Positions 5,043 to 36,010 of a DNA stretch of 64,000 nucleotides are shown here, one piece after another (within the stretch, counting starts at the first letter, position 1; the number at the start of each line of letters is the position of its first letter). This DNA comes from Paenibacillus graminis (GTDB lineage: Bacteria; Bacillota; Bacilli; Paenibacillales; Paenibacillaceae), in contig NZ_CP009287.1 of the NCBI RefSeq assembly GCF_000758705.1, positions 3,968,001 to 4,032,000 on the forward strand. The letters are read 5' to 3'. The notes beneath the pieces were generated by a model, which was not told the DNA's origin, made no database searches, and worked only from the letters and a program-made list of their open reading frames with translations. The translations under genes were made by a program, and so were the position numbers.

Positions 5043-5073
5043 CAGCAAAGGCCCCTGCAACGGGGCTTTTGCT
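5043..5073 (+). terminator. Rho-independent terminator
   Basis: AGCAAAGGCCCC-TGCAAC-GGGGCTTTTGCT, a long stem whose arms include the A and T runs, so it can work both ways. Confidence 0.85.
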
Positions 5074-5075
5074 GT

Positions 5076-5422
5076 ATTCTATCCATTTTCCTGACGATTA
5101 TTGGAGCCTGGGTAGGAACCAATTCCATCACTTTAGATCCGCCGCGAAATTTCTTTTACCGGTGGCCCAGAAATTTTTCCATAGCATTTTGGGTCGAAGC
5201 CTTCATTGCCCAGCCTGCAGCAAGGTTGGCTATGAAAAAATTACATGCACAGCAGGCCCGCAAATTAGCAAGCGGACGTTCTTAGGCCTTCGGGCTAGGT
5301 GTCAGCTAGAAACCCGACAAGTGCAGGAGCGGCAGGTATTCATCAAAATAATTGCCGTGCTGCGGATGAACCCCTTCTACCATTTGCATAGTCTATCTCA
5401 AATACTACTGGGGGTATGCACT
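5076..5422. other. Noncoding stretch
   Basis: About 350 bp between the terminator and the next start. Open frames cross it but lack ribosome sites and show no coding character. No RNA gene or repeat recognised. Confidence 0.4.
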
Positions 5423-5854
5423 ATGACACGGTTTCTTGATGCCAGAACTTCACAGAACGCCAGTACTGCAGGCAGTATGAACGGAGTAGGATTAACCGCA
5501 AACCAAAATGTACTTGTTGGCCAGATCGGATTAAATACCGCTGGAGCTGAGGGGCCAATCAGGGTACAGCTTTATGGAGTTGCAACATTTTTTGTGTTTT
5601 CAGGAGGATTCATCACCTTGAATCTTTTTGCAGTCAGAGGAAGTGTTGCCACCGATCCAGTGATCGCGTCAAACCGGCTTCAGTTAAATCCCGGAGCTAC
5701 AACTCCGACAAATACATTCCCGCTGTATCTGATAGGTTCGGACTACAATCCAGTACCGTCTGATGAGATCGTCTATTCCTTATTTGTGAACAGCTCAGTT
5801 AACGTTAACCGGATCGGTCCAGAGAGCTTTAATGGCTGCGCTTATTCAGACTAG
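5423..5854 (+). CDS. Unassigned Ser/Thr/Asn-rich beta protein
   Basis: 143 residues from ATG 5423 with GGGGGT about 7 bp upstream; the longer open frame has no ribosome site. Low charge, rich in Gly, Asn, Ser, Thr and Val with alternating strands (NQNVLVGQIGLN, IRVQLYGVATFFVFSGGFITLNLFAVRG, TFPLYLIGSDY, IVYSLFVNSSVNV), which looks like a jelly-roll or other all-beta surface fold. No signal peptide. Spore-surface or exosporium proteins of Bacilli often look like this, but the assignment is only a guess. It is the last chromosomal gene before the prophage left end. Confidence 0.6.
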   Translation: MTRFLDARTSQNASTAGSMNGVGLTANQNVLVGQIGLNTAGAEGPIRVQLYGVATFFVFSGGFITLNLFAVRGSVATDPVIASNRLQLNPGATTPTNTFPLYLIGSDYNPVPSDEIVYSLFVNSSVNVNRIGPESFNGCAYSD

Positions 5855-5896
5855 AATGATATTCCCCGACTGTACCGGATAACTTGATATCTGCAC

Positions 5897-5929
5897 AAAA
5901 AAAGCCCTTGACGCATTAGCGTCAAGGGC
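5897..5929 (-). terminator. Original glnA terminator, displaced
   Basis: On the minus strand GCCCTTGACGC-TAAT-GCGTCAAGGGC followed by seven Ts. One arm (5919-5929) lies inside the attL repeat and the other outside it. Before insertion of the prophage this hairpin ended glnA. Confidence 0.85.
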
Positions 5930-5991
5930 TGCTTCATCCTAGTAAAGAGTCATGTACTGATCTCTTTCCCATTCGTGGACTTGGGTGCGGT
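5918..5991. repeat. attL: 74-bp copy of glnA 3' end
   Basis: Bases 5918-5991 are identical to 15152-15225. Read on the minus strand the copy encodes the last residues of glutamine synthetase ([17 protein letters not shown] and stop). It is a displaced 3' gene end, typical of site-specific integration into a gene end. The identity stops sharply at both sides. Confidence 0.92.
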
Positions 5992-6098
5992 TTACAGTTT
6001 GGCCTTTTTAGATCAATCTGAACGCTACTGAATGCCTTGTATAAAAGGGAACTAAGAGAGGTGACTTTTTAAAATGTACTGCCTTCCTTCTATTATAT

Positions 6099-6139
6099 GT
6101 GGGCATTTTGTGGGCATTTTGTGGGCGTTTATGTGGGCA
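6099..6139 (+). repeat. Left integrase arm-type repeats
   Basis: Four copies of GTGGGCA (third is GTGGGCG) start at 6099, 6110, 6121 and 6133, about one helical turn apart, 108 bp inside attL. The same motif occurs twice beside attR (15071, 15082). Spacing and position fit arm-binding sites of the N-terminal domain of the integrase. Confidence 0.7.
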
Positions 6140-6185
6140 CTACTTTTGAGTCATATTAAAGCCATAAAAATTGAGCCGTCCAGGA

Positions 6186-6404
6186 TTATTCCTGTGGCGG
6201 CTCTTCTACATACTCAATTAATTCAGAAATGTCTTTCAGTTCCAATGCAATCATAATCTTGTTGAGATTTTCCGGGGACCAAGCTTTGGATTTATTATCG
6301 GCCATATCTGAGATAGTGGGGTACCGTATTCCTGTCGTTTTAGATAGTTGGTTTGCATTTAGCCTTTTTTCATAAAGTAGCTTGTCCAGTTTGAGTCTTA
6401 ACAT
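6186..6404 (-). CDS. XRE-family (Cro/CI-like) regulator
   Basis: 72 residues, a single helix-turn-helix domain: LDKLLYEKRLNANQLSKTTGIRYPTISDMADNK, then WSPENLNKIMIALELKDISELIEYV. This is the compact Cro/CI form seen in phages and mobile elements; it would bind operator DNA as a dimer. It is transcribed away from a strong divergent promoter (6481-6509) surrounded by ACGAT-type inverted repeats that are the likely operators. Its own promoter is TTGAAT-17-TATATT (minus strand). The element's other, ImmA-linked repressor is truncated, so this may be the functional regulator that remains. Confidence 0.85.
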   Translation of the reverse strand: MLRLKLDKLLYEKRLNANQLSKTTGIRYPTISDMADNKSKAWSPENLNKIMIALELKDISELIEYVEEPPQE

Positions 6405-6421
6405 ATGCTCACCTCATCAAT

Positions 6422-6450
6422 AATATACCCGATTTCCGTAAAATATTCAA
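6422..6450 (-). promoter_or_regulatory. Promoter of the XRE regulator
   Basis: Minus strand TTGAAT (6445-6450) and TATATT (6422-6427) with a 17-bp spacer, 20 bp before the start codon. Confidence 0.65.
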
Positions 6451-6460
6451 CGAACCTCGA

Positions 6461-6509
6461 ACGATTATATACGATTATCGTTGACATATATACGAATATC
6501 GTATATAAT
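6461..6509 (+). promoter_or_regulatory. Consensus promoter with XRE operators
   Basis: TTGACA (6481-6486) and TATAAT (6504-6509) match consensus exactly with a 17-bp spacer. Inverted repeats ACGATTATCGT (6471-6481) and TACGAATATCGTA (6491-6503) cover the -35 and the spacer, and a half site ACGATTAT lies at 6461. Binding there by the divergent XRE protein would repress this promoter. Confidence 0.8.
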
Positions 6510-6536
6510 TATATATGTAGAGAGGAGGTGAACACA

Positions 6537-6656
6537 TTGGATAAATCGAGACAAGAAAGGCGGAAAGAGGAAAAAGCTGAAACAGTCAAGACGGTGACGG
6601 CAATCATCGGCTTGATAAACTCAATCCTCACCCTCATCTACTTGCTGATTAGGTAA
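6537..6656 (+). CDS. 39-residue membrane peptide
   Basis: Starts with TTG 6537 behind GAGGAGGTG, in a transcript from a perfect consensus promoter. Residues 1-18 are highly charged (MDKSRQERRKEEKAETVK); residues 19-38 are one hydrophobic helix (TVTAIIGLINSILTLIYLLI). The charged-end plus single-span build resembles phage holin-like or type I toxin peptides, but the polarity and motif are not diagnostic. Tight control by the neighbouring XRE protein is inferred. Alternatively it is a small subunit or modulator of a membrane protein. Confidence 0.6.
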   Translation: MDKSRQERRKEEKAETVKTVTAIIGLINSILTLIYLLIR

Positions 6657-6766
6657 GTTATCCCGAAACCTTGGCCCCGAAAGGGGCTGAGGCCTAGGGG
6701 GATGAAATACAAGGGCCGCCTTTCCTCTCGATTATAACATAACTATAAGATAAGGAGCGATGAGCC

Positions 6767-6859
6767 ATGAGCATTAAAGAAAGAACTACTGTAATTGCCA
6801 CATATGCCGCACTGGTAATAAGCATCGCCAATACCGTTATCTTGTTGGTGAAATGGTAA
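6767..6859 (+). CDS. 30-residue membrane peptide
   Basis: ATG 6767 with AAGGAG 10 bp upstream. The peptide MSIKERTTVIATYAALVISI is followed by ANTVILLVKW and stops: a basic start, then one transmembrane helix nearly to the C-terminus. It overlaps the next gene by one base (TAATG), so translation is probably coupled. Same build as the 39-residue peptide upstream, which suggests a pair of small membrane peptides in one operon. Holin-like toxin is possible; not proven. Confidence 0.55.
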   Translation: MSIKERTTVIATYAALVISIANTVILLVKW

Positions 6860-7101
6860 TGCTGCCGGCACATGTAAGACTCGCTGAGTTTTACTACCTG
6901 CATAAAGCCGGCAAGCTCACAATGGAGCATGGCCCCGAGCTGCTACAGTGCCTCCACGTTAACGCCCGCTACTGCTGGGACAGCCTAAAGCTGCGGCAGC
7001 TCTCCAATATGGCCGTAGCCACGCAAGATATGGAATGGTTGACTAAACTTCACATCCAGGAGGAAGCCCTGCGGCTGACCGGGAGGGCTCCCACCATATG
7101 A
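6859..7101 (+). CDS. Phage-type small protein
   Basis: 80 residues. I use ATG 6859 in the TAATG overlap; an ATG two codons earlier is the alternative. Contains LPAHVRLAEFYYLHKAGKL, HGPELLQCLHVNARYCWDSL, and a helical C-terminus. It resembles short helical proteins that recur in Paenibacillus phages (DUF7667-like, from memory), role unknown. It overlaps the next, broken gene by ATGA, so the four genes from 6537 to 7334 look like one operon driven by the XRE-controlled promoter. Confidence 0.6.
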   Translation: MLPAHVRLAEFYYLHKAGKLTMEHGPELLQCLHVNARYCWDSLKLRQLSNMAVATQDMEWLTKLHIQEEALRLTGRAPTI

Positions 7102-7334
7102 AACTTTCTGACATCAAACCCGGTCAGCGCGTCCAGATCATTCCCCGCCACCCGAGCAGCTTCGGCGGCCGGATCGGCAGCGTGGTCGCTATAGGCACTT
7201 TCGAGGGCGGTCCTATGTAGATCGGCGTGTTGGTGGATATCGGTGAGCCACTGCTGACCATCATTGAGCCGGAAGCTTTGGAGCCAGCACCGGAAGATCC
7301 ACTACCACCTGGATGGGCGGAATACGACATATGA
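7098..7334 (+). pseudogene. Small phage gene with in-frame TAG
   Basis: The frame from ATG 7098 reads MKLSDIKPGQRVQIIPRHPS and continues for 40 codons to a TAG at 7218, then stays open in the same frame for another 37 codons to TGA 7332. The part after the stop (IGVLVDIGEPLLTIIEPEAL...) continues the same beta-barrel-like pattern, so a single base change has interrupted a 78-codon gene. No sequencing or suppression evidence is available. Family not recognised; the first part could be a small SH3-like domain. Confidence 0.7.
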
Positions 7335-7340
7335 CAAATG

Positions 7341-7368
7341 CCCCGCTGGCCTTATTATGGCTGCGGGG
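7341..7368 (+). terminator. Hairpin after the prophage small-gene operon
   Basis: CCCCGC...GCGGGG hairpin with an inner GGCC/GGCT stem. It lacks a proper T run, so termination is uncertain. Confidence 0.4.
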
Positions 7369-7584
7369 TGATTTCAGTCCCAAAAAATGGATATACCTTT
7401 CCAACTATGTATGCATATGTTTAGACATATTCTAGAACCTATCGTATTCTATGTAATGGATTTGTCCTAAATATCAGTTTTACAGTAACTTTAAGTAAAT
7501 TTTCAATTGGCAGGAGCGTGATTATCAGTTGAAGATAATATAAACAAAAGTAAGTGCCAAATTTAAAATTACGGAGGTCCAAAA

Positions 7585-8547
7585 ATGAAACGAATTCTTA
7601 CATTGTTTCTGACATTAATTCTTTGTTTAACTGCAGTTCCGTTTAGTACGTATGCCGCTTCTGAAAATCATATTGCCGGACTACCCTTTATTTCCACAAA
7701 TAATCCTTCTGATAGTCATACTGAGGCAACTGATGGAGACCTATCCACTAGTTTTAAAATGAAGGACTCAGATTACAAGTTGACTTTTGATCCCACCGAA
7801 GTTAAAAGCATAAGCATAATTGCCTCATTACCAGTACATAACGGTAGTGGATTGTGGTTAAGAGCGTTTGATAATGGAACTCAAAAAGTATACGAGATCT
7901 ATCACCCCACACTGGAAAAACAAACATTTACTTACAGGTTTAAGCAGCCTGTAAATCTTACGTCTATACGCCTTTCATACTCGGGTAACTTAATCTACGA
8001 GGTAGCAATAAACTCAGATTTGAGTACAACACCTACTCCTACACCGATCGCTACACCTACACCAAGTGCAACTCCTACACCAAGTGCAACTCCTACACCA
8101 AGTGCAACTCCTACACCAAGTGCAACTCCTACACCAAGTGCAACTCCTACACCAAGTGCAACTCCTACACCAAGCGCTACTCCAACACCAAGTGCAACTC
8201 CTACACCAAGTGCAACTCCTACACCAAGTGCAACTCCAACACCAAGTGCAACTCCTACACCAAGTGCAACTCCAACACCAACTGCTACGCCAGAACAACC
8301 AAGTGAAAGTGAACGAGCAATAGTTACAATCACACTGATTAATGGAATTGAAAAGGAGTATGATCTCCCTATTTCAGAGGCCGACGCTTTCGTTAAATGG
8401 TACGATGCAAAAGATGCTGGAAGAGGCCCAAGCTCATACGCAATTAACAAGCACTCCAACAACAAAGGCCCATATAAAAAACGCACAGATTATGTTGTAT
8501 TCGATAAAATCCTTACCTTTAGTGTAGACGAGTACACCGCTGAATAA
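7585..8547 (+). CDS. Secreted protein with Thr-Pro repeat linker
   Basis: 320 residues. Signal peptide with a Lys-Arg start, Leu/Thr core and AYA-like cleavage near residue 25. Residues 26-150 form an unassigned globular domain; its pattern ([11 protein letters not shown]..., [12 protein letters not shown]) is reminiscent of F5/8-type or carbohydrate-binding discoidin domains, low certainty. Residues about 155-235 are a low-complexity TPTPSA repeat linker (13 units). A C-terminal domain follows ([20 protein letters not shown]...[20 protein letters not shown]), of a type seen in phage and Bacilli proteins. GGAGG precedes ATG. It is lysogenic cargo: surface or secreted, probably binding rather than catalytic. 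Confidence 0.7.
8051..8288 (+). repeat. 18-bp tandem repeat coding for TPTPSA
   Basis: Thirteen in-frame 18-bp units (ACTCCTACACCAAGTGCA with silent variants), twelve ending Ser-Ala and the last Thr-Ala. Near identity at DNA level suggests recent expansion by slippage and possible length variation between strains. Confidence 0.9.
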
Positions 8548-8551
8548 GCTG

Positions 8552-8590
8552 ATAAGCCCCGCTTAGCCGTTACTGGCCAGCGGGGCTTAT
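8552..8590. terminator. Bidirectional terminator
   Basis: ATAAGCCCCGCT...AGCGGGGCTTAT, 12-bp stem, between convergent stops; its right end overlaps the last codons of the YolD-like gene. Confidence 0.75.
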
Positions 8591-8928
8591 ATTATGTAGA
8601 AACCGAAATAACCTCTTCCTTCGCGGATCCAATCCCAGTCATCTTCCGACCAACGCAGCTTGATGCCGCGCTGCCGATCCAGCTGCATGACAATGCCTCG
8701 GGCGAGGTTATCCTCGAACGGATCAAACAGGGTCAATGTAACAGGGCTGTGATCCTCCATCAACTGAGCCAGGGCGCGTTCAATTTCCTCCACTGCCTGA
8801 GGATCCAGGACCGGCTTCTGCCGCCGCAGTTGCTCCCACTCCTCTTCGATGATGCGCTGTTTATGCTCCGGCAGCATCATGCGGCTGCTCTCCCAGAGAC
8901 CGTTGCCTTCAAGCTTTTTACGTTCCAC
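8587..8928 (-). CDS. YolD-like protein
   Basis: 113 residues from GTG 8928 with AGGAGG about 9 bp upstream. The pattern LEGNGLWESSRMMLPEHK near the N-terminus, VTLTLFDPFE in the middle and the IKLRWSEDDWDWI end are typical of the YolD-like family. In Bacillus, YolD-type genes are paired with Y-family polymerase uvrX (umuC-like) and are LexA regulated. Here a good LexA box (8958-8971) lies at the promoter but no polymerase gene follows, so it is an orphan. Role of the family: assumed accessory to translesion synthesis, not well defined. Confidence 0.85.
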   Translation of the reverse strand: MERKKLEGNGLWESSRMMLPEHKQRIIEEEWEQLRRQKPVLDPQAVEEIERALAQLMEDHSPVTLTLFDPFEDNLARGIVMQLDRQRGIKLRWSEDDWDWIREGRGYFGFYII

Positions 8929-8949
8929 ATCTCATCGCCTCCTGGGTCC

Positions 8950-8971
8950 ATTATATGCGAACACTTGTTCT
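8950..8971 (-). promoter_or_regulatory. LexA box and -10 of the YolD-like gene
   Basis: CGAACACTTGTTCT (8958-8971) has both GAAC/GTTC halves. A minus-strand TATAAT (8950-8955) lies just downstream of it; no good -35 is visible. Confidence 0.75.
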
Positions 8972-9107
8972 TTTATTACAAGAAAAAAGCCCCTTCATTG
9001 TCATAGAATTACCTTTGCTTACAAATTTTATTGATTTTATATTATCATCTCCAGATAAATTTGTCACCTTTTATATGCTCCGCTTTTGACATCAGCAAAC
9101 GCCTCAG

Positions 9108-9263
9108 TCAACAGGTAATGGTACAGACTCCGACAACTGCAATAATACCGGTGACTTTGATCGCCTCCGCTGATGCCCCAAACGCTCCCAGGACATAAGT
9201 ACCGACTGCAGCCAGTAGCACCCGAAAATTCTGGCTTAATAATTTCGTAAGGACTTTATTCAT
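9108..9263 (-). CDS. Possible 51-residue membrane peptide
   Basis: ATG 9263 to TGA 9108: MNKVLTKLLSQNFRVLLAAV then a Gly/Ala/Val-rich hydrophobic run (TYVLGAFGASAEAIKVTGIIAVVGVCTI). Two short hydrophobic segments suggest a small membrane or holin-like protein, which would fit a prophage. There is no clear Shine-Dalgarno and the frame is short, so it may be a remnant. The rest of 8972-9345 holds no gene that I can see. Confidence 0.35.
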   Translation of the reverse strand: MNKVLTKLLSQNFRVLLAAVGTYVLGAFGASAEAIKVTGIIAVVGVCTITC

Positions 9264-9345
9264 TCTACTAATATTTGCAAAATCACATAGTAAATATTAC
9301 CTATATTTGATAAACTATCTCCATCAACCAAATATGGAGGTACAT

Positions 9346-10089
9346 ATGAAAAAAAAGAAATTGATTACCGCTGCCATTGCCGGCTTGGTCCTTGTTTCTA
9401 CGTTTTCCGCCGGAGCGTATGCTGCTACAAAATTTAAATTGATTGTAGATGGAAAGACTACGTCTGCTGATATTCAAGAGATCAAGGGCGCTCCTTACGT
9501 ATCATTGAAAGATGTTGGAAATCTATTAGGAGCAACGGTAAAGTATGACAGCATAACAAAAACGGCCACTATAACCAGCAAAGGAAACGCATCTACAACT
9601 GCTCCTGCTACGAATGACACTGTGCAATCAAGTCGTACCAAGCCAGCTGCTGTCGGATCCAATCTTCCTTTTACAGTCGATAGCGCTCTGAAAAAGTATA
9701 CCGGTCAAGTTTCAATCACTCAAATCATACGCGGGGATGAAGCATGGAAAATGATCAGTGAAGCGAATTCGCTTAACAGCCCGGCAAAAGAAGGTTATGA
9801 GTATATTTTGGCAAAAGCGAATGTTAAGATTATTTCCAATAAAAAAAGTACGGATGCAGCGGTAGACGTTTGGAATGGAGATTTTAAGCTTGTATCCAGT
9901 TCCGGAACCGATTACGACTATTTAATGTCAATAGTTCTCCCTGAACCCAACATAGACGCAAAGGTATATGCGGGTTCGTCCAAAGAGGGGTGGGTTGCAT
10001 TTCAGGTCAAGAAGGATGATCCTTCACCTGTCATAAGTTTTGCTCGAAAATATGACGGTTCTGGTGGTGTCTGGTTCAAAACAAACTAA
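9346..10089 (+). CDS. Secreted stalk-domain protein, DUF4352-like C-terminus
   Basis: 247 residues from ATG 9346 with TGGAGG upstream. Signal peptide: five Lys then a Leu/Ala core ending AGAYAATK. Residues about 27-78 are a copper-amine-oxidase N-terminal-type stalk domain (KLIVDGKTTSADIQEI, APYVSLKDVGNLLGATVKYD), a peptidoglycan-linked domain frequent in Paenibacillus. A Thr/Ala-rich linker follows. Residues about 105-247 look like a DUF4352/telokin-like immunoglobulin fold (EGYEYILAKANVKII). The protein is probably exported and wall- or surface-attached. In the element it is cargo, flanked by terminators on its 3' side. Confidence 0.75.
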   Translation: MKKKKLITAAIAGLVLVSTFSAGAYAATKFKLIVDGKTTSADIQEIKGAPYVSLKDVGNLLGATVKYDSITKTATITSKGNASTTAPATNDTVQSSRTKPAAVGSNLPFTVDSALKKYTGQVSITQIIRGDEAWKMISEANSLNSPAKEGYEYILAKANVKIISNKKSTDAAVDVWNGDFKLVSSSGTDYDYLMSIVLPEPNIDAKVYAGSSKEGWVAFQVKKDDPSPVISFARKYDGSGGVWFKTN

Positions 10090-10094
10090 AAAAC

Positions 10095-10128
10095 AGCCCT
10101 GCCGACTATTATGGTCAGCAGGGCTTTT
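10095..10128. terminator. Terminator
   Basis: AGCCCTGC...GCAGGGCT stem followed by TTTTC, between convergent genes. Confidence 0.8.
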
Positions 10129-10154
10129 CATAATCCCAAACGCTTGGGATTTTA

Positions 10155-10961
10155 TTAATCTCCTTTCAGGCGGGCCAAGTCCAACCGGTACAATACTGTA
10201 AAAATCCGCGCCTCTGTTTTTGTTGCCTTGTCCGGTGTATCAATGACCGGATTACCGTTAAAAACAGAAGGCGTATCATGTAGCGCCTGAATGGCCTCCA
10301 AGGACCACTTTGGCGGGGTGGTATCTGTCAGCTCCAGGATTGCTCTACCCAATTCCTTAATCTCCCCAGCCTGCTGCAGAACCTGACCCTTTAGAGCATC
10401 CTTACTATTGGTCAGACCCGCCACAACTTCCGCCAGCTCCTTGATCTGCGTTTCCAGTACTTCAATTTTACTCATGTCTTCTTCCGCCTCTCCTTGTAAT
10501 TTATCAATGACGGCATACGCCGCTTTTACCTGTGCTGCTGTTGGTTTTGCTCCAGATCGCAACGCGGACAGTACCAGTCCAAAGGTCATTTGAAAATGCG
10601 GATAATCCTTTATACTGGTCCAGTCTCCGCCCCACTCGAAACCCAGCGCCTTAGCTTGCTGGACAACCCCTTTCCAATCAGCTACCCTATCGCCGTTACC
10701 GTCCCGATTCATATCCCAGGAGACGTTACGACCATCCGGCTGCAGCAGCGCAAAATCTATAGCCAGACCGTAATTGTGATAGCTATGACCACCCCGGGCA
10801 TTTGTGACAATTGGCCCCGGCTTCGTGCGGCCCTGCGCGTACAATGCGTCTTGCTTCGCGATGGTGCGCAGCCCTTGAGTAATCAATATATTGACTCCCT
10901 GGGCATAACAGTGTTCAATCATAAGATATTTAGTTGTATGCCAGTTTTCCGCGCGCCCCAC
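10155..10961 (-). CDS. M15 L-alanyl-D-glutamate peptidase endolysin, N-truncated
   Basis: 268 residues in the open frame. The zinc peptidase core is complete: GLRTIAKQDALYAQGRT, GGHSYHNYGLAIDF (His and Asp ligands) and YPHFQM (third ligand His), as in CwlK/VanY-type phage lysins that cut the peptide stem of peptidoglycan. The C-terminal 110 residues are helical (KIEVLETQIKELAEVVAGL, NSKDALKGQVLQQAGEIKEL) and may be a coiled-coil or wall-targeting part. The N-terminus is odd: GTG 10961 has no ribosome site and the first residues overlap the preceding tail fragment in another frame; the usual ~20 N-terminal residues are missing. Probably a deletion joined the two genes, so expression is doubtful. 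Confidence 0.8.
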   Translation of the reverse strand: MGRAENWHTTKYLMIEHCYAQGVNILITQGLRTIAKQDALYAQGRTKPGPIVTNARGGHSYHNYGLAIDFALLQPDGRNVSWDMNRDGNGDRVADWKGVVQQAKALGFEWGGDWTSIKDYPHFQMTFGLVLSALRSGAKPTAAQVKAAYAVIDKLQGEAEEDMSKIEVLETQIKELAEVVAGLTNSKDALKGQVLQQAGEIKELGRAILELTDTTPPKWSLEAIQALHDTPSVFNGNPVIDTPDKATKTEARIFTVLYRLDLARLKGD

Positions 10962-12366
10962 AAGAGGTATATCCGCCGCCCATAGAAGCCTCCACTTTAA
11001 AGTAAAGAATAACCCTATTGTCTAGGTTGAAGGGCTTTGTAAAAGTGCCGCTCACCCCTATGTCAGTGTTACCATACCACCCTCCGTGATAATCGGAACC
11101 ATCTTGACGGGTGGTTGAGGTTATCTGTCTGTTAATCCTATCGACAAACATACCGTCTTGTGCAGCAAACCAGCTTCCGCTAAAGCTTTCATATCCTCCT
11201 AACAATAGTTCATTGCCATGAATGTCCTGCAAGATTAAACTTTGCTTTTGGAAGATATTAGTGGAAGATTGATCTTGATTAATATATCCAGCATACGCTA
11301 TATTTGTCCATCCGGCAGGTACTCTAAAAATTTCATAGAACCCTATAAGGGGGAGGGACACCCGGTCCTGGACTACTAAAGTTCACAACAAAAGCCCCGC
11401 CAAAGTATTCCCGAATATTCCCCGTCATATCACCGATAACGACCCCTGCACGAACATTATTGGGGACAAGACCCGGTACAGGTGCAGTCACCCAGGAATC
11501 TCCATTAAACCATCCTGCCGGCGGTCTGATGAAGAATCTGTCTCCTTACCATACAGTTACTGCGGTGCCTGGCATATGGTGGTTACGTGCTGAGTTATTA
11601 GCTATCCCTCCAGGAGTGCCAAATATATCTCCGCCCTCAAGAATGTAATTTGATCTAAGCCAGCCATCAACAGCTTGAAGTTGTGCTGTTGACACTCTTA
11701 ATTCCCCTTCGCCCGAACCGCCTTTACGGTACCCCTTGCGCGGGTATACTGCCAAATCACCGTTACCCCATTTACCAGCTCCGAGCGCTGGGTCATTGTT
11801 TGATGTGATATGGGGCATCGTCCCCGTAAACTCGCCGTTATCGTTTGTAAAATTGTAGGGCTCTAGAACATGCGCGGGCTGGGCTGTACCATATCCCCCC
11901 GCGCTATCTGCCAAAAAATCCGGCCCTACTTTTCTAAAGGAATAAGGCTTGCCCGCCAGCAGGTTAAGGGTTGCCCCTTTGATCTTTCAAAGGTACTGCA
12001 CCCAGCCCGTCAACGTTTAGTGTTGGGTTTGCTAGGTTGGTGTTCTGCGGAACTATCGTTACCCAAAAACCCTAAATACCCTGTGGGCTTTGGGGACAGC
12101 GACATTGTATAGTCTTTGTTACCTAAGGCGGGGCCGAAACCCGGCTGCCGAATGTAGTTGAGGTTTACTTGGTTAATAGACGCTTCAAGCCCCAAAACCC
12201 CGTTCTCAAGGTTATTCAGGTTCGCAGCATTCAACGGTGTTCCTGCCGCCAGTATCGTACCCTCTGCGGACACCAGCGTAACAGTGCCATCAGGGTTATT
12301 TTCTAGTGTATAGGTCCGGGGTGTCTCGACCTCTCGATCTTCCCAGGTTGTACGATTATAAGCCAC
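10930..12366 (-). pseudogene. Tail-fibre-like gene, broken in several places
   Basis: Reading starts with GTG 12366 behind GGAGGG (AYNRTTWEDREVETPRTYTL, then LNAANLNNLENGV, a motif of Bacilli tail fibres). Around 12065 the sense continues in another frame (VTIVPQNTNLANPTLNVDGLG), near 11955 in a third (LAGKPYSFRKVGPDFLADSA), then a TAA at about 11546 interrupts it, sense continues past it (RFFIRPPAGWFNGD, NNVRAGVVIGDMTGNIREY), and a last shift leads into the 11361-10930 frame ending GGYTSCGARGKLAYN. At least three frameshifts and one stop codon show decay. It would have been the distal tail or receptor-binding protein. Confidence 0.8.
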
Positions 12367-12377
12367 AACGTTCCCTC

Positions 12378-12724
12378 CTATCCTTGATAATGCTGCCACA
12401 GCAGCAAAAGATTAAGTTCCCACCATTGGCATCGGCATACCCAAATAGCTGCTCTGGCGTCCACGGCAGATCTCTGCCTACCCATCCCACCGGTGTGTAT
12501 GGCTGCCTTAATTTATCTAAGTTGCTTTTGATACGTTTAAAATCGTCTTCGAAGGGCACCCACCATTCATTTCTTGTTGTCACGCCGGGCATTATAGTTA
12601 CTGCCACACCCTTCTCCTGCATGATAGAGACCATTTCTTTTATGTTGTTTTCTATCCTATCCATATCGTTGTAGGCGTAATAGTCACTTGGTTGCCAGTT
12701 GACTTTTGGTGTGAGCCAGGCCAT
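12378..12724 (-). pseudogene. Phage minor tail protein with 3' frameshift
   Basis: ATG 12724 with GGGGGGG upstream. The sequence has the repeated WLTPKVNWQPSDYYAYNDMDRIENN and YTPVGWVGRDLPWTPEQLFGYADAN motifs typical of small structural proteins encoded just before tail fibres in Bacilli phages. At about 12420 the natural ending (WELNLLLLWQHYQG, stop at 12378) is in the next frame; the current frame instead runs to 12356 with a Cys-rich nonsense tail. The ribosome site and start of the next gene sit right after the shifted stop, which supports a one-base indel. Confidence 0.75.
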
Positions 12725-12736
12725 CACCAGCCCCCC

Positions 12737-13066
12737 CTATCTGTACTTGGAAATCAGAATCTCAGCAGAAGCAAATTCTCCGCCCAGGTAACCGTAAACC
12801 CCGTAAGGCGTAAAGGTGGCGTTTATTGCGCCCATCTGTTTAGTGTTACCGTCAGGCAGCACACCACGAACGGCCACAATAAAAGTATTATCCTTCGTCC
12901 ATGTGGTGTCGGGGTAGTTCATGTTAAAGTCTGTGGTATTGACAATATCCGCCTTCACTACGGTTATGTCAGGAATGCGACGCGCACCAGACCAAGCATG
13001 TCCATCAGAATCAACAGAAAATAATTTCTGTTCAAGGGCTTCAGAAATTCGACGAGATACAACCAA
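12737..13066 (-). pseudogene. Tail gene fragment, 5' truncated
   Basis: The frame enters from 13066 without a start codon or ribosome site (first possible codon TTG). It reads ALEQKLFSVDSDGHAWSGARRIPD, then TTDFNMNYPDTTWTKDNTFIVAVRGVLPDG, and ends ASAEILISKYR. The pattern fits a phage tail structural protein. Its 5' end abuts the 5'-truncated repressor gene on the other strand, so both were probably cut by one deletion between about 13025 and 13066. Confidence 0.65.
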
Positions 13067-13428
13067 TTGAACCGGATTACCTAGCTATTGATAGAGTTGC
13101 TAAGGCCCTCATTATGGAGCCAAAGGTATTGCGGAAAGCATTGAGTAGACAAGAACCACCAGGCTATGAGGGCCCAGAGGATGCTCGAAGCCTTGAAGAA
13201 ATTTTCGCTAAAAATGATCTTAAAGAGCCATCAGTTCCTGAATGGGCTACTAAAAGGGACACTCGCGACTTTAAAAAGATGCTCGAGGAAGACACTCCTA
13301 TCATGTTTGATGGCGTACCGATAAGCGAGGATGACAAAGAAAAGATCAAGCGCGTGATGGAGGCTATGTTTTGGGACGCGAAAAAGAAGAATAAAGAAAC
13401 CTATGGACGTAAGACGAAGGGTGACTGA
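13048..13428 (+). pseudogene. C-terminal part of phage repressor
   Basis: The open frame runs into this region from the left without a ribosome site; it reads FDEIQPIEPDYLAIDRVAKALIM, then LSRQEPPGYEGPEDARSLEEI and an acidic/basic helical C-terminus (DDKEKIKRVMEAMFWDAKKKNKE). This is the typical C-terminal part of XRE-type repressors that precede ImmA/IrrE peptidase genes in phages and ICEs. The helix-turn-helix N-terminus is absent. ATG 13114 is the first possible start, but no ribosome site precedes it. The stop is 5 bp before the peptidase gene, so they formed an operon. Confidence 0.65.
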
Positions 13429-13433
13429 CATTC

Positions 13434-13850
13434 ATGGAGATAAATCGACTTATTCGAAGATTGCTTCGAAAGCATAAAACGAACTGTCCTTATCGCCTGG
13501 CCGCGGCTCTAAATATAGAAGTTTGGTTTGAGGATCTGGGTGAAGGCACACGCGGCATGTTCAGACGAACATTACGGCGCAAGTACATTGTTATCCACTC
13601 GGGGCTGTCGGAAGCTTGGAAACGGGTCATTTGTGCCCACGAACTTGCGCACCCCCTTCTCCATCCCGGGATCAGCCGTTTTTGGATAGACGAGCATACT
13701 TTTTTCTGTGTGGGACGCTATGAACGTGAGGCGAATTACTTTGCCGTTCGATTATTGACTTCTGGAGATACTGTAGAAGACGGGGATACGGTCTATAACC
13801 TATTTCACCGTAACGGAATCCCTGATGAAATGATTCAATTTTACATATAA
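13434..13850 (+). CDS. ImmA/IrrE family metallopeptidase
   Basis: 138 residues. The zinc motif HELAHPLLHP (HExxH) at about residues 68-72 and the downstream EREANYFAVRLL glutamate helix define the ImmA/IrrE (M78) family. ImmA-type peptidases cleave the partner repressor after DNA damage and so induce the element. Start ATG 13434 follows AAGGGTGA. Its partner gene directly upstream is truncated (13048-13428), so here the peptidase has probably lost its substrate. N-terminal part is basic (LIRRLLRKHKTNCPYRLAAAL), as usual. Confidence 0.88.
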   Translation: MEINRLIRRLLRKHKTNCPYRLAAALNIEVWFEDLGEGTRGMFRRTLRRKYIVIHSGLSEAWKRVICAHELAHPLLHPGISRFWIDEHTFFCVGRYEREANYFAVRLLTSGDTVEDGDTVYNLFHRNGIPDEMIQFYI

Positions 13851-13923
13851 CCTTCGTGCTTTCCAGCTGTAAGGCTGTTTATTATACCATAAAATAGAAC
13901 ATATGTTTGTAGTGATGTAAATT

Positions 13924-15054
13924 ATGGCAAGCTTTAAGAAGCAATCTACAGGATGGGAGTATCGAATACGTTACAAAGACCCTATCACTCAGAAATTTAA
14001 GGAGAAGTCGCAGCGAGGTTTTGAGACAAAGAAGGAAGCACAGGTCGCAGCAGCAGACGCAGAAAGTAAAATAGCAGAAGGCTACGAGCAAACAGACATC
14101 CCTCTAATCGTCTATCTTGAAGAGTATGTACAAGAGTATAAGGTCGGCACAGTCCGAAAAAACACATTAATCCAGCATCAGAATAACATTAAGAATCACA
14201 TTAAACCGTATTTTCAATCAATTATGCTTAGAGAAGTAAAACCGATTGGATATCAAAAATTTTTAAATCATCTTGCAGAGAAATACAGCAAAAGTACCGT
14301 TGAAATTATCCATAATACCATGAACAGTGCATTGGAGAAGGCCGTGACTCTTGGGAAACTGGAAAAGAACCCGTGTAGAGGAGTTACAATTAAAGGGAGC
14401 GTCAAAGCGAAGGGTTTAAAATTCATCGAATCTGAGCATATACCCGCTTTTCTCCGGGCCGCTCACCAGTATGGTTACATCTATTGGATGTTTTATCGAA
14501 TTTTGATTGAAACTGGCATGCGGAAAGGTGAAGCCGCCGCCTTGACATGGGATGACGTTGACTTGAAAGCCGGCACTATAACTATAAATAAGACATTGGA
14601 TTTCAGCGCTGAAGACGAATCAGAACTTTTCGGGGATACCAAGACATTTAACTCGGAACGAACGATAAAGATTAGTCAGTCAATCATTCAGGATTTGAAA
14701 CAGCACATAAAATATCAGAACCAAAATAAACTGGCCTGGAAAGGCTCTTACAAGCACAAGCTTAATCTGGTACTCTGCCGAGACGATGGTAATTTTATGC
14801 CGAAGTCATCATTATTCAATTCGTTTTCACGCATCCTGAAACGTGCCGGTCTTCCATCAATGCCGATCCACTCTCTGAGGCACACCCATGCTGTGTTACT
14901 CCTAGAGGCAGGCAATGATATGAAGTATGTACAAGAACGATTGGGACACGGTAGCATGAGAATTACTGCGGACGTCTATTCCCACGTTTCCAAAAAGATT
15001 GAAGAGAGCAGTATGGAGAAGTATGAGGCCCACATGAAATCCATCCTCGAATAG
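13924..15054 (+). CDS. int: Tyrosine site-specific integrase
   Basis: 376 residues, full length for phage integrases. Residues 1-55 are an AP2-like arm-binding domain (FKKQSTGWEYRIRYKDP), residues about 60-150 the SAM-like core-binding domain, and the rest the catalytic domain with ETGMRKGEAAALTWDDV (Arg), HSLRHTHAVLLLEAG (His-x-x-Arg), RLGHGS (His) and VYSHVS (Tyr nucleophile). It catalyses recombination between attP and the glnA 3' end. ATG 13924 has only a poor ribosome site. It lies next to attR (15152), as is normal, and arm-type repeats occur at 15071 and at the left end. No excisionase was recognised. Confidence 0.93.
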   Translation: MASFKKQSTGWEYRIRYKDPITQKFKEKSQRGFETKKEAQVAAADAESKIAEGYEQTDIPLIVYLEEYVQEYKVGTVRKNTLIQHQNNIKNHIKPYFQSIMLREVKPIGYQKFLNHLAEKYSKSTVEIIHNTMNSALEKAVTLGKLEKNPCRGVTIKGSVKAKGLKFIESEHIPAFLRAAHQYGYIYWMFYRILIETGMRKGEAAALTWDDVDLKAGTITINKTLDFSAEDESELFGDTKTFNSERTIKISQSIIQDLKQHIKYQNQNKLAWKGSYKHKLNLVLCRDDGNFMPKSSLFNSFSRILKRAGLPSMPIHSLRHTHAVLLLEAGNDMKYVQERLGHGSMRITADVYSHVSKKIEESSMEKYEAHMKSILE

Positions 15055-15070
15055 CTACCTCGAAATATTT

Positions 15071-15088
15071 GTGGGCATTTTGTGGGCA
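15071..15088 (+). repeat. Right integrase arm-type repeats
   Basis: GTGGGCA at 15071 and 15082, 11 bp apart, 64 bp from attR. Same motif as the four copies beside attL. Confidence 0.65.
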
Positions 15089-15132
15089 CCATTAGTTTAA
15101 GGGTCCTTCACTACTCCCACGCCCACGCAAAG

Positions 15133-15162
15133 AAAAACCCTCAACGCTTAGAGCGTCAAGGG
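15133..15162 (-). terminator. Phage-rebuilt glnA terminator
   Basis: On the minus strand CCCTTGACGCT-CTA-AGCGTTGAGGG then TTTTTC. The first arm is inside attR, the second is phage DNA that pairs completely using two G.U wobbles. It replaces the original glnA terminator left at 5897. Confidence 0.85.
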
Positions 15163-15225
15163 CTGCTTCATCCTAGTAAAGAGTCATGTACTGATCTCTT
15201 TCCCATTCGTGGACTTGGGTGCGGT
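15152..15225. repeat. attR: 74-bp repeat at glnA 3' end
   Basis: Identical to 5918-5991. It carries the last 17 codons of glnA with its stop, plus one terminator arm. Integration therefore left the GlnA reading frame intact. Confidence 0.92.
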
Positions 15226-16501
15226 AGATATCCCATTCAATTTCCTTCAGTTCGTAGAAGTGAGCCAAGGCATGTTCACCGAGGGCTTCGGTAATGACAT
15301 GACTGCGGATCATTTCGCCCAGCGCTTCCTTCAGATCGGACGGCAAGCTTGGAATGCCTTCTTCGATCCGCTCTTCTTCGGACATCACATAGATGTTGCG
15401 GTCGATAGGAGCAGGAAGATCAAGCTGGCGTTTGATGCCGTCCAGACCTGCCTTCAACATGACAGCAAGTGCCAGGTAAGGGTTAGCCGCAGGATCCGGG
15501 TTACGGACTTCGATACGTGTGCTGAGCCCTCTGGATGCCGGGATACGGATCATTGGGCTTCGGTTGCTGGCGGACCAAGCCACGTAGCAAGGCGCCTCAT
15601 AACCAGGCACAAGACGTTTGTACGAGTTCACTGTAGGGTTAGTGATGGCTGCAAAAGCACGTGCGTGCTTAAGAATGCCTGCCATGTAGTACCGCGCAGT
15701 TTTACTCAGACCAAGAGTGTCACTTTCGTCATAGAACACATTCTCGTTGCCTTTGAACAAGGATTGGTGTGCGTGCATACCGGATCCGTTCATACCAAAA
15801 AGAGGTTTAGGCATAAAAGTAGCATGCAGGCCGTGCTGGCGGGCAACCGTCTTCACGACAAGCTTAAAGGTTTGAATTTGGTCGGCAGCCTTGATGGCGT
15901 CAGCATATTTAAAATCAATCTCATGCTGGCCGGAAGCAACTTCATGGTGAGATGCTTCGATTTCGAAGCCCATTTCCTCCAGAGTCAGTACGATTTCACG
16001 GCGGCAGTTCTCCCCAAGATCCATCGGCGCCAAATCAAAATATCCACCCTGATCATTTAATTCCGTTGTCGGATTGCCTCTTTCGTCTGTTTTAAACAGG
16101 AAGAATTCCGGCTCTGGTCCAACATTCATCGCCGTGTAGCCCATTTCCTCGGCTTCCTGCAGACAGCGTTTCAGAATGCCGCGCGGGTCACCGGCAAAAG
16201 GTGTTCCGTCAGGCATGTACACATCGCAAATCAGACGTGCTACCCGGCTGTCCGTTACCCAAGGGAAAATAACCCATGTGCTCAGATCAGGGTAAAGGTA
16301 CATGTCAGATTCTTCAATCCGCACATAACCTTCGATGGAAGAACCATCGAACATCATTTTGTTGTCCAGCGCTTTTTCCAGCTGGCTGACAGGAATCTCA
16401 ACATTCTTAATCGTACCGAGCAAATCGGTAAACTGCAGACGAATAAAACGGACATTTTCATCCTTAGCGATACGCAGGATATCCTCTTTTGAGAAGCTCA
16501 C
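15173..16501 (-). CDS. glnA: Glutamine synthetase type I
   Basis: 442 residues, the length of Gram-positive GSI-alpha. It makes glutamine from glutamate, ammonia and ATP in the cytoplasm as a dodecamer. Visible hallmarks: [29 protein letters not shown], the Glu-rich metal sites, [11 protein letters not shown], the [12 protein letters not shown]/glutamate segment and [15 protein letters not shown]. There is no adenylylation-type insertion. GTG 16501 has GGGAGAGGG upstream. Second gene of the glnRA operon, 30 bp after glnR. Feedback-inhibited GS acts as the co-regulator of GlnR in Bacilli. The last 17 codons are supplied by the prophage attR and are unchanged. Confidence 0.97.
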
Positions 16502-34076: not shown

Positions 34077-34577
34077 TCAAAGGTAAAAATACCTTTGATT
34101 TGCCTGCAACGGGCGTTAAGGCACCATTCAAAGGTAAAAATACCTTTGATCTGCCCTGCAACGGGCGTTAAGCACCATTCAAAGGTAAAATACCTTTGAT
34201 TTGCCAGTGACAAGCGTTGAGGCACCATTCAAAGGTAAAATTACCTTTGATTTGCCTGCAACGGGCGTTGAGGCACCATTCAAAGGTAAAAATACCTTTG
34301 ATCTGCCTGCGACAGGCGTTGAGGCACCATTCAAAGGTAAAAATACCTTTGATTTGCCTGCAACGGGCGTTAAGGCACCATTCAAAGGTAAAAATACCTT
34401 TGATTTGCCACTGACAAGCGTTGAGGCACCATTCAAAGGTAAAAATACCTTTGATTTGCCAGGTGACAAGCGTTGAGGCACCATTCAAAGGTAAAAATAC
34501 CTTTGATTTGCCTGCAACGGGCGTTAAGGCACCATTCAAAGGTAAAAATACCTTTGATTTGCCTTCAACGGGTCGTC
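34077..34577. repeat. Tandem array of ten ~50-bp hairpin units
   Basis: Ten units, period 50-52 bp. Each has a palindrome CAAAGGTAAAAATACCTTTG (hairpin) and then a connector of two kinds: TGCCTGCAACGGGCGTTAAGGCA or TGCCAGTGACAAGCGTTGAGGCA, itself with TGCCT/AGGCA ends. Several frames stay open through it, but they are artefacts of the repeat. The array lies between two convergent 3' ends. Connectors are alike, so this is not a CRISPR. Confidence 0.9.
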
Positions 34578-34579
34578 TA

Positions 34580-36010
34580 CTATGCCAATTCCCGCCCACT
34601 CGATCGCCATTTGCCGCACCACAGCCCGCGGATGTCGCGGGACTCATCCCAGGTCTGTTCCGCGGCAATACAGCTGAACAGCGGTTCTATATAACGCGCC
34701 GCCTGCGCATAGCCAGGCAGCGCGCGCAGCTGCGCCGCAAGCGGAGGCAGCGCGGCGCGCAGCGGCGGTTTGTCGCCGCTATAGTAGGCGGCATGCAGGT
34801 CTTCCCGGTCGAGCGGGCGCAGCGTGAGGTCTTCATAACGGCTCACAATCAGGTGAGCCAGGAAGACCACTCCTTTGGCGATGACCGGGGACACCAGGAA
34901 GCTCGGCAGGGTCCGGTATTCAAAGCCGCCATGCGGCTGAAGCCGGAAATCGCCGAGCCCCCCGTACCTCGGACGCCGTGCCGCCGCACAGTCGTCCTCC
35001 AGCAGCAGCAGCGGCAGCGCGAGATAGTTGTCGAGCGCGCGCAGAAGCGGCGCGCACAGCGTCACGCCGCTGAAGTGCAGATGGCCGCCGAGGGCCCAGC
35101 CCGGCAGCGGCATACCTCCCGCCCGCCAGTACAGCGAGCGGTCGGGGATGAGCCGGTCCGCCATGCGCGCGGCGGACATCAGCTGCGCCAGCAGCGCGCG
35201 CGGTTCCCCGCGCGGCGCAGGGCGCAGCTCGGCGACCGGGAACGCGCCGTGCGTTCCCGGAGGCCCGGCGTCGCAGCCGGCGACGCCGTCCATGGGCAGG
35301 TACCGCGACGCCGGCACGGCGCGGCCTGTGGAGGCCCGGAGCAGGAGGAACTCCGGGTCCATGCCCATCAGCAGCCCCGGACGGCCGGGCTGCTCCAGAG
35401 CCAGGGAGCGGGCCAGCGCCAGCGAGGCCGCGCGGTATGGCTCCGGCAGCACCCCGCCGGAGCCTGCCCGAAGCGGAGTAACCTTGTCGACCCTGTAGCG
35501 GCGGCCGCCCAGGGACTTCAGCAGCACCTCTCCGCTGTCGAGGCCGAGCGTATACAGCGCCCGCACCGCGGTATCCCGCATTTTTCCCGCCGCGCCGCGC
35601 TGGCGGCCGGGAGATGCCGGGACTTCGGATCGGCTATGCCGCACTCCGGTTCCCCCTTCGCCCTGGAGGCCGGGCATCCACTCTTGACCGTGCAAGGCGA
35701 TATCCGCCGAGCCATTTCCCTCATCCGCTCCATTCCACCGCATCACACCCGCATGGATGACAGGAGGCAGAGCGGCCGGCTTCATCGCTGCCCCCGTTCC
35801 AAGCGGCTGGATTTCCAGCACCTCCAGGTTAAATACACGGACCCGGTAATACTGCTTGTACGAATGGGCCGACACAGACTCTCCGGCAGTATCCTTCCCC
35901 GGTCCCGAACCTTCTGCCGGCACCAGCAAGGTTACCAATCCGTTGCGCCTCAGCCTCTCTTCCCGCTGGGCAGCGGACAATAGCAAGTATGTAGGAAGCC
36001 CCTCATTCAT
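34580..36010 (-). CDS. Putative COOH-NH2 amidoligase
   Basis: 476 residues from ATG 36010 with AAGGAG close by. The C-terminal 270 residues match the phage phiEco32-like COOH.NH2 ligase type 2 family: GMDPEFLLL (216-224), YLPMDGVAGCDAG, PVAELRP (258-264), WALGGHLHFSGV (305-316), QPHGGFEYRTLPSFLV (358-372). Fold is of the glutamine-synthetase/GCS kind; such enzymes join a carboxylate to an amine with ATP. The N-terminal part (1-200) is unassigned and probably binds the substrate. Substrate unknown. It lies between cotE and mutS, after a terminator of cotE, so it has its own transcript. GC-rich relative to neighbours. Confidence 0.75.
   Translation of the reverse strand: MNEGLPTYLLLSAAQREERLRRNGLVTLLVPAEGSGPGKDTAGESVSAHSYKQYYRVRVFNLEVLEIQPLGTGAAMKPAALPPVIHAGVMRWNGADEGNGSADIALHGQEWMPGLQGEGGTGVRHSRSEVPASPGRQRGAAGKMRDTAVRALYTLGLDSGEVLLKSLGGRRYRVDKVTPLRAGSGGVLPEPYRAASLALARSLALEQPGRPGLLMGMDPEFLLLRASTGRAVPASRYLPMDGVAGCDAGPPGTHGAFPVAELRPAPRGEPRALLAQLMSAARMADRLIPDRSLYWRAGGMPLPGWALGGHLHFSGVTLCAPLLRALDNYLALPLLLLEDDCAAARRPRYGGLGDFRLQPHGGFEYRTLPSFLVSPVIAKGVVFLAHLIVSRYEDLTLRPLDREDLHAAYYSGDKPPLRAALPPLAAQLRALPGYAQAARYIEPLFSCIAAEQTWDESRDIRGLWCGKWRSSGRELA

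Follow-up and report, generated by a model that had tools for sequence, protein, structure and literature searches.

Insertion of a phage genome into the 3′ end of a protein-coding gene raises the question of how the interrupted gene regains its end. We address this question for glnA, the glutamine synthetase gene, in a 64,000-nucleotide stretch of Paenibacillus graminis DNA (the window; positions 3,968,001 to 4,032,000 of contig NZ_CP009287.1, assembly GCF_000758705.1), in which an element at 5918-15225 is bounded by two copies of the end of glnA. Integration that restores a gene end is already known. For example, phage 21 and e14 use icd. At icd and at many tRNA genes the phage attachment site (attP) carries replacement sequence and the target stays functional, as described in the sections covered of PMC10111431.

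On the basis of sequence comparisons, we consider it highly probable that 5918-15225 is a defective prophage that was inserted by its integrase into the codons for the GlnA C-terminus, with attP supplying the end of glnA including a terminator. The glnA end appears to be a common insertion site of an ordinary type and an apparently little-noticed docking place for phages, and the glnA-specific integrase clade is apparently undescribed. The literature searched contained no relevant paper on glnA attachment sites or on terminators within attachment (att) sites; an earlier listing in the TIGER island survey is possible.

The 74-bp repeat and the end of glnA

Comparison of the window with itself identified a 74-bp direct repeat whose copies at 5918-5991 and 15152-15225 (both minus strand) are 100% identical, which reproduces the coordinates and the perfect match given in the original prediction, a reading of this DNA made from its sequence alone. 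A search of the genome, a single contig of 7,166,464 bp, recovered these two copies and no third. The repeat contains the final 16 full codons of GlnA, one partial codon, the stop codon and 21 nt beyond. The right copy, the core of the right junction (attR), is the true 3′ end of glnA (15173-16501, minus strand, 442 aa; identified from the list of open reading frames (ORFs) and by a genus-wide glnA search). The left copy, the core of the left junction (attL), is a detached glnA tail without the rest of the gene. The reading frame and stop of glnA are kept and the block of identity lies within the 3′ end of the target, a pattern that fits gene-end-restoring integration of the icd type.

The 9.2-kb element between the repeats carries at its glnA side a tyrosine integrase gene (int; 13924-15054, plus strand) with an open frame of 376 aa, identified by Pfam and phrog_1 and placed by a tree in a clade found at glnA. 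It is convergent with glnA, with its 3′ end ~100 bp from the glnA copy of the repeat and ~120 bp from the glnA stop. Arm-binding, core-binding and catalytic domains are all present (PF14657 Arm-DNA-bind_4, 4.4e-8; PF14659 Int_SAM_3, 1.3e-12; PF00589 Phage_integrase, 2.2e-25). Tyrosine integrases have the catalytic set R-K-H-R-H-Y; in an 8-row alignment R200, K240, H316, H342 and Y352 are invariant, and the second catalytic arginine (319) is present in the window integrase and replaced only in the truncated L010. Near the cores, the motif TGTGGGC occurs on the plus strand four times at 6098-6138 on the attL side (feature 6098-6139, from a motif scan) and twice at 15070-15087 on the attR side, where repeat comparison and motif scan place two copies of TGTGGGCA at 15070-15088. 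These mutually similar repeats are likely arm-type integrase sites. TGTGGGC alone is not enriched in the window (11 occurrences against a shuffle mean of 9.3), and the feature of interest is its clustering.

Each junction carries a terminator-like hairpin on the minus strand. The attL hairpin (5903-5930) has 12 pairs and folds with its flanks (5890-5941) at -27.2 kcal/mol (z -5.3, 0/200 shuffles as good), while the attR hairpin now 3′ of glnA (15136-15164), presumably supplied by the phage, has 13 pairs, 6 of them G-C, and folds with its flanks at -20.9 kcal/mol (z -4.5, 0/200 shuffles as good). A GC-rich hairpin followed by a U-run thus stands after the glnA stop, as predicted for an intrinsic terminator. 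By eye the stem at 15136-15164 contains three G.U pairs; the slightly shorter stem drawn in the original prediction had two. The 74-bp identity stops inside the stem, and hence the 3′ arms of the attL and attR hairpins differ. The attL hairpin is nearly identical to the one 3′ of glnA in G029, a relative with an identical GlnA, and is therefore probably the old host terminator, as claimed earlier for this position. Since frame, stop and a terminator-like hairpin are intact at glnA, the further claim that both the protein and its transcription stop were preserved also holds at the level of sequence.

Comparison with relatives

G029 also carries, in the stretch examined, a single copy of the core at glnA that differs by eye at 2 of 74 bases, in keeping with the single copy anticipated for element-free relatives. 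G047 is a better empty-site comparison than G029. In G047, similarity to the window DNA outside the left repeat sets in ~57 bp past the glnA stop, and window positions 5071-5917, which hold a gene, have no counterpart.

Several of these relatives show features of their own. In G029 (L035, 400-1150) two remnants of glnA-type terminators lie ~650 bp apart, possibly the scar of an older insertion. In G055 (L038) the window gene that ends at 5854 is matched on both sides within a decayed glnA element region. The integrase on a 12.4-kb contig of G026 (L149) is 91% identical; its gene is separated from the expected position of the core by unrelated DNA that may be an insertion sequence. The glnA contig of this genome carries a second int fragment that is 97% identical.

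Probable position of the strand exchange

Repeat pairs were compared in the window (G000), G026, G027, G032, G004 and G035. The repeat begins 50 nt before the glnA stop (-50) in 6/6 pairs, while its other end varies from +15 to +52. The window and G027 pairs are exact; the G004, G035, G026 and G032 pairs have 1-3 mismatches, with that of G026 spread over two contigs and containing one gap. In the decayed elements of G055 and G081 the surviving exact repeats cover only -45 to -18 and -45 to -19. These boundaries place the crossover probably within the codons for YRTQVHxWER, the conserved C-terminus of GlnA, at approximately -50 to -18 from the stop, which corresponds in the window to predicted segments at 5959-5991 (attL) and 15193-15225 (attR). 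With a crossover in the last codons, attP would therefore bring those codons, the stop and the whole hairpin.

The course of events that we envisage is as follows. The integrase would recombine attP with the codons for YRTQVHxWER, and exchange between approximately -50 and -18 would swap glnA's entire end. At attR, glnA would thereby acquire its final codons, its stop and a complete terminator from the phage, while the host's own glnA tail and terminator would be moved to attL. Since the copy kept by the phage matches that of the host, the GlnA protein would stay the same. The terminator is kept in most, though not all, lineages perhaps because convergent transcription from glnA would otherwise run antisense into int; a phage-borne terminator would protect int from such read-through. 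The element would later have lost its replication, packaging and head genes and most of its tail genes.

The glnA site in bacilli

To describe how common this site is, we used two sets of genomes. Among named genomes, the best 80 of 150 confirmed integrase relatives were retained. GlnA is encoded within 2.5 kb downstream of the integrase in 70 of these 80 (in 69 with at least 100 aa aligned; L171 has 44 aa at a contig end), a glnA tail alone is present in eight (L156, L176, L186, L206, L213, L217, L228 and, partially and by eye, L209), and neither is present in L151 and L202. L151 shows no glnA or tail in 828 nt of flank, with unrelated DNA, perhaps an insertion sequence, after int. Across the 72 sites scored for distance and terminator, int lies 91-231 bp from the glnA stop, L170 excepted; the value of 231 stems from a frame error in L195. 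Thus, the earlier statement that glnA is uncommon as a target does not hold, as a large integrase clade resides at glnA across bacilli. In B. subtilis 168, a prophage-like region adjoins glnA.

In a tree of 90 rows the glnA-site integrases form, together with those of SPbetaL5, DS11, PhiSepi-HH1, a circular "plasmid" described below and L202, one branch of 73 rows (support 99/91), and the window integrase falls inside it. A pattern search found no glnA tail in the flanks of the 17 rows outside this branch, with flanks of only 103 and 48 nt for YPHTV-1 and phiOH2. Two identical integrases of Paenibacillus ottowii (L186, L220) lie ~60 kb apart on a single contig, one beside glnA and the other beside a detached tail; they are neighbouring insertions at one site. 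In addition, a 690-kb "plasmid" of Cytobacillus spongiae (L317) carries glnA and a MerR-type regulator with a glnA-clade integrase adjoining.

The second set comprised 100 searched genomes of the genus, of which 99 yielded glnA at E <=1e-200, with flanks of up to 20 kb that are shorter at contig ends. An integrase trace lies directly 3′ of glnA in 15 of the 99, and G043 and G035 add two more outside this count. A pair of arm-type motifs within 115 bp, one forward and one inverted, is present in 17/99 glnA flanks versus 0/5,067 control windows, the motifs having been picked after inspection of glnA flanks; eight of the 17 flanks have no integrase trace, and six of the 15 trace sites have no full motif pair. 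An element or likely scar is thus present in at least 23 of 99 Paenibacillus glnA 3′ flanks, and because so many carry an integrase trace or scar-like motif pair, a terminator annotated after Paenibacillus glnA may be derived from a phage. Prophages at glnA measure ~41.6 kb in G027, ~40.1 kb in G032 and ~35.7 kb in G004, while other integrase traces have decayed to various lengths. Exact repeats of at least 16 bp from the glnA end occur in 6/99 flanks, with lengths of 20-22 bp in G049, G084 and G050.

Free forms of the attachment site

Four free attP sites carry the last glnA codons and the stop, and three of the four have a good terminator-like hairpin. In Bacillus phage SPbetaL5, whose integrase is 52% identical to that of the window, a tail encoding MFRTQVHPWEREQYMSQY and a stop lies just past int. 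In the unverified record of Staphylococcus phage vB_SpsX-DS11 (DS11), YRTQVSEWEVEQYMKQY and a stop adjoin int and are followed by what by eye is a terminator-like sequence. On a circular 33-kb "plasmid" of B. glycinifermentans (L308, NZ_MF996511.1), a glnA tail is accompanied by what by eye is a terminator-like sequence. In the tree, the plasmid integrase is identical to that of an element inserted at glnA in a different strain. The fourth is a circular 35,912-bp contig of P. mangrovi (G035) with 55-bp identical ends in the core, which carries attP with a hairpin of -19.5 kcal/mol (L156), while glnA without a phage flank sits on a separate contig. NZ_MF996511.1 resembles the circular form of a glnA-site element, and its incomplete gene table names no structural phage genes.

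DS11 and PhiSepi-HH1 were reached by a distant DNA search of phages with the attR end, which returned 71 records, nearly all of them irrelevant short matches. PhiSepi-HH1 was at one point regarded as a free phage with its tail 3 kb from int, a view that was abandoned because the record, an extracted prophage, has int at one end and, translated by eye, a glnA-type tail ~30 kb away that fits attL.

Terminator carriage across sites

A hairpin was counted as strong when it followed the glnA stop, carried a T-run and folded at -13 kcal/mol or better, with dinucleotide shuffles as the control. Such a hairpin is present 3′ of glnA at 59 of 72 integrase-bearing sites versus 4 of 360 shuffles; the 72 sites include L156 and L176 (tail only, at a contig end) and L170, and L195 was scored as hairpin-less through its frame error, a separate analysis showing its hairpin. 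An earlier test with mononucleotide shuffles and a lax cut-off gave a weak result (58/63 versus 57/189) and was replaced by the dinucleotide test. Absence of the hairpin clusters on the integrase tree (11 without, 54 with), requiring 5 changes versus a shuffle mean of 10.4 with 0/500 shuffles as low. The labels for this tree were assigned by us, the integrase matches of two of the weak-hairpin sites, L222 and L225, were too short for it, and the 11 include the identical P. ottowii pair; some clustering is expected, because near-copies make labels cluster. Within the genus, a hairpin of -8 kcal/mol or better is present at 15/15 sites with an integrase trace and at 83/84 sites without one; glnA therefore normally has a hairpin, whether a phage is present or absent. 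Phages thus supply the hairpin in most cases, but not in all.

Gene content of the element

Between its junctions the element encodes, in addition to the integrase, a Cro/CI-type helix-turn-helix (HTH) regulator (6186-6404, minus strand; PF13443, 1.8e-11), a YolD-like protein (8587-8928, minus; PF08863, 9.8e-16), an M15 peptidase endolysin (10155-10961, minus; PF13539, 2e-18; phrog_2649, 5.6e-44) and an ImmA/IrrE-type metallopeptidase of the M78 family (13434-13850, plus; PF06114, 1.8e-16). Short ORFs at 11546-13066 (minus) probably represent a phage tail region, with matches to phrog_18725, phrog_17334 and phrog_28171 (unknown function) and a weak match to the phrog_6142 baseplate family (0.0088); one of them, 12356-12727, occurs in one other genome of the genus, G047, far from its glnA. 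A small ORF (13114-13428, plus) has a counterpart (50% over 78 aa) that adjoins ImmA and int in the G032 prophage. Two further ORFs are probable cargo. The first (7585-8547, plus) contains ~14 repeats of an 18-bp unit at 8035-8285 that encodes TPSA repeats, and its C-terminal part matches phrog_10059, of unknown function; the second (9307-10089, plus) has a DUF4352 match and a copper-amine-oxidase-N match below the curated cut-off.

The PHROGs scan took in 18 ORFs of the element and a 19th located in the flank. No terminase, portal, capsid or full tail module was found among the 18, and the element does not have the gene content of a complete phage. Five viral contigs encode related integrases. 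The element is matched close to both contig ends in two of these (51 and 34 kb) and only at the int end in the remaining three. We read the element as a prophage that lost its middle, including the genes for replication, packaging and head and most of those for the tail. The earlier description of a prophage in the 3′ end of glnA is thus retained with regard to site-specific insertion of a phage, while what remains is a 9.2-kb remnant and not a complete prophage. Other glnA elements share little with it beyond int. A near-identity search with the whole element across phage records gave zero matches, and Rfam and tRNA scans of the window gave no match.

Alternative explanations

A number of observations weigh against an insertion in which attP regularly supplies codons, stop and terminator. 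The crossover is placed by repeat boundaries, and the 74-bp identity alone does not assign bases to one parent or the other. G029 is not a clean empty site, since ~650 bp and a second half-hairpin intervene between glnA and the shared flank. Twelve of the 72 sites are without a strong hairpin, including those of P. lycopersici, P. glycanilyticus, P. ottowii and three Oceanobacillus, the attP hairpin of SPbetaL5 is weak (-5.4 kcal/mol), and native glnA has the same kind of hairpin, such that carriage of a terminator by the phage is not required. The structure of the G035 contig could be an assembly path. With regard to the site itself, the L202 integrase belongs to the glnA clade yet is not at glnA, that of L170 lies 1.5 kb from glnA, and that of L216 (Priestia abyssalis) is at a divergent glutamine synthetase paralog, 54% identical, whose C-terminus keeps YRTAVHTWE.

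The window pair by itself, with its identity ending within the stem, would also permit a crossover inside the hairpin, in which case the glnA terminator would be a true bacterial/phage hybrid that pairs through G.U by luck or selection. We consider this improbable. The repeat continues past the hairpin in four of the five other pairs (exactly in G027; with 1-3 mismatches in G004, G035 and G026), in G032 attR and attL disagree in both arms close to the loop, and the boundary common to all six pairs is that at -50. The exact repeats of the decayed G055 and G081 elements survive only upstream of the stop, at -45 to -18 and -45 to -19. Because of the behavior of the five other pairs, the half-bacterial, half-phage appearance of the hairpin probably reflects no more than the point at which the 74-bp identity stops. 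Additionally, G.U pairs are as frequent at glnA sites without an integrase trace in the genus (2.5 per stem, 83 stems) as at integrase-bearing sites in named genomes (2.7 per stem, 59 stems). Thus, of the two-origin hairpin originally proposed, the difference between the arms at the two ends stands, whereas the assignment of one arm to the bacterium and the other to the phage is probably wrong.

A functional role for the element as it now stands, either as a small satellite like the phage-inducible chromosomal islands (PICIs) or as a locus for tail-derived particles that keeps int and tail/lysis genes, seems to us equally doubtful. PICI-type satellites have primase/replication initiator and satellite regulator genes, and none of these was found among the 18 ORFs scanned with PHROGs or the 10 scanned with Pfam, nor was a terminase or capsid; moreover, the tail ORFs are short, and the remaining integrase traces at glnA differ in the length to which they have decayed. 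The 9.2-kb size, intact int, HTH and ImmA genes and a retained endolysin would favor such a role, as would G026, where one contig has an int-to-core distance of ~9-10 kb and the glnA contig an int fragment with a 70%-identical endolysin. However, the contig of G026 that carries the complete int has nothing but int and att DNA in common with the window. An origin of the repeat by duplication or recombination, with which a perfect repeat is by itself compatible, is scarcely credible given the integrase clade at glnA in 70 of the 80 best relatives, attP in free form, arm-like repeats near both cores and an identical 5′ boundary in six elements. Slightly less probable than the hybrid or satellite readings is a more speculative one in which the phage terminator acts as a valve, with glnA transcription, which is under nitrogen control, reading through antisense to int in hairpin-less lineages and so linking excision to the nitrogen state of the host. 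If this were true, the glnA site would not have been chosen for conservation alone, and lineages that keep the terminator would shield int.

Comparison with known systems

The reading of 5918-15225 as a defective prophage whose attP supplied the glnA end resembles the icd-type integration of E. coli prophages in that the target of the integrase lies well within a housekeeping protein gene, whose end attP replaces. It differs in that the target is glnA and the hosts are bacilli. At most glnA sites, moreover, the stretch that is replaced includes a terminator-like hairpin. SPbetaL5, a Spbetavirus, is similar in its tyrosine integrase and in an attP that holds the GlnA C-terminus, but is a 127-kb phage with a weak hairpin. 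The rows covered of Table 2 in a review of SPbeta phages give spsM, kamA and intergenic sites and include neither glnA nor SPbetaL5 (PMC8270828). DS11 and PhiSepi-HH1 have integrases in the same tree branch, with the glnA-type tail adjoining int in DS11 and at the far end in PhiSepi-HH1, while their integrases are only 35-39% identical to those of the window or SPbetaL5. PhiSepi-HH1 is a prophage region extracted from genomes, and the portion covered of the main text describing it does not mention glnA or glutamine synthetase (PMC7891712). The Paenibacillus glnA prophages (G035 from P. mangrovi, G027, G032 and G004) agree with the window in integrase clade, site and core boundary but are ~36-42 kb in length. 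Counterparts of window genes in these prophages are the HTH regulator, YolD, ImmA and the small ORF in G032, ImmA (37%) in G004, and int alone in G027 and G035.

Phage attachment at the end of glnA, a central nitrogen gene, is thus widespread in bacilli, and the core of the site has a sharp boundary. The presence of attP in sequenced phages, together with natural variants that have or do not have a terminator, provides a test bed for what a phage must return to a housekeeping gene.

Elsewhere in the window, 9.7 copies of a 51-bp unit at 34077-34572 encode KSKVFLPLNGA-like peptide repeats in an ORF at 34168-34668 (minus strand).

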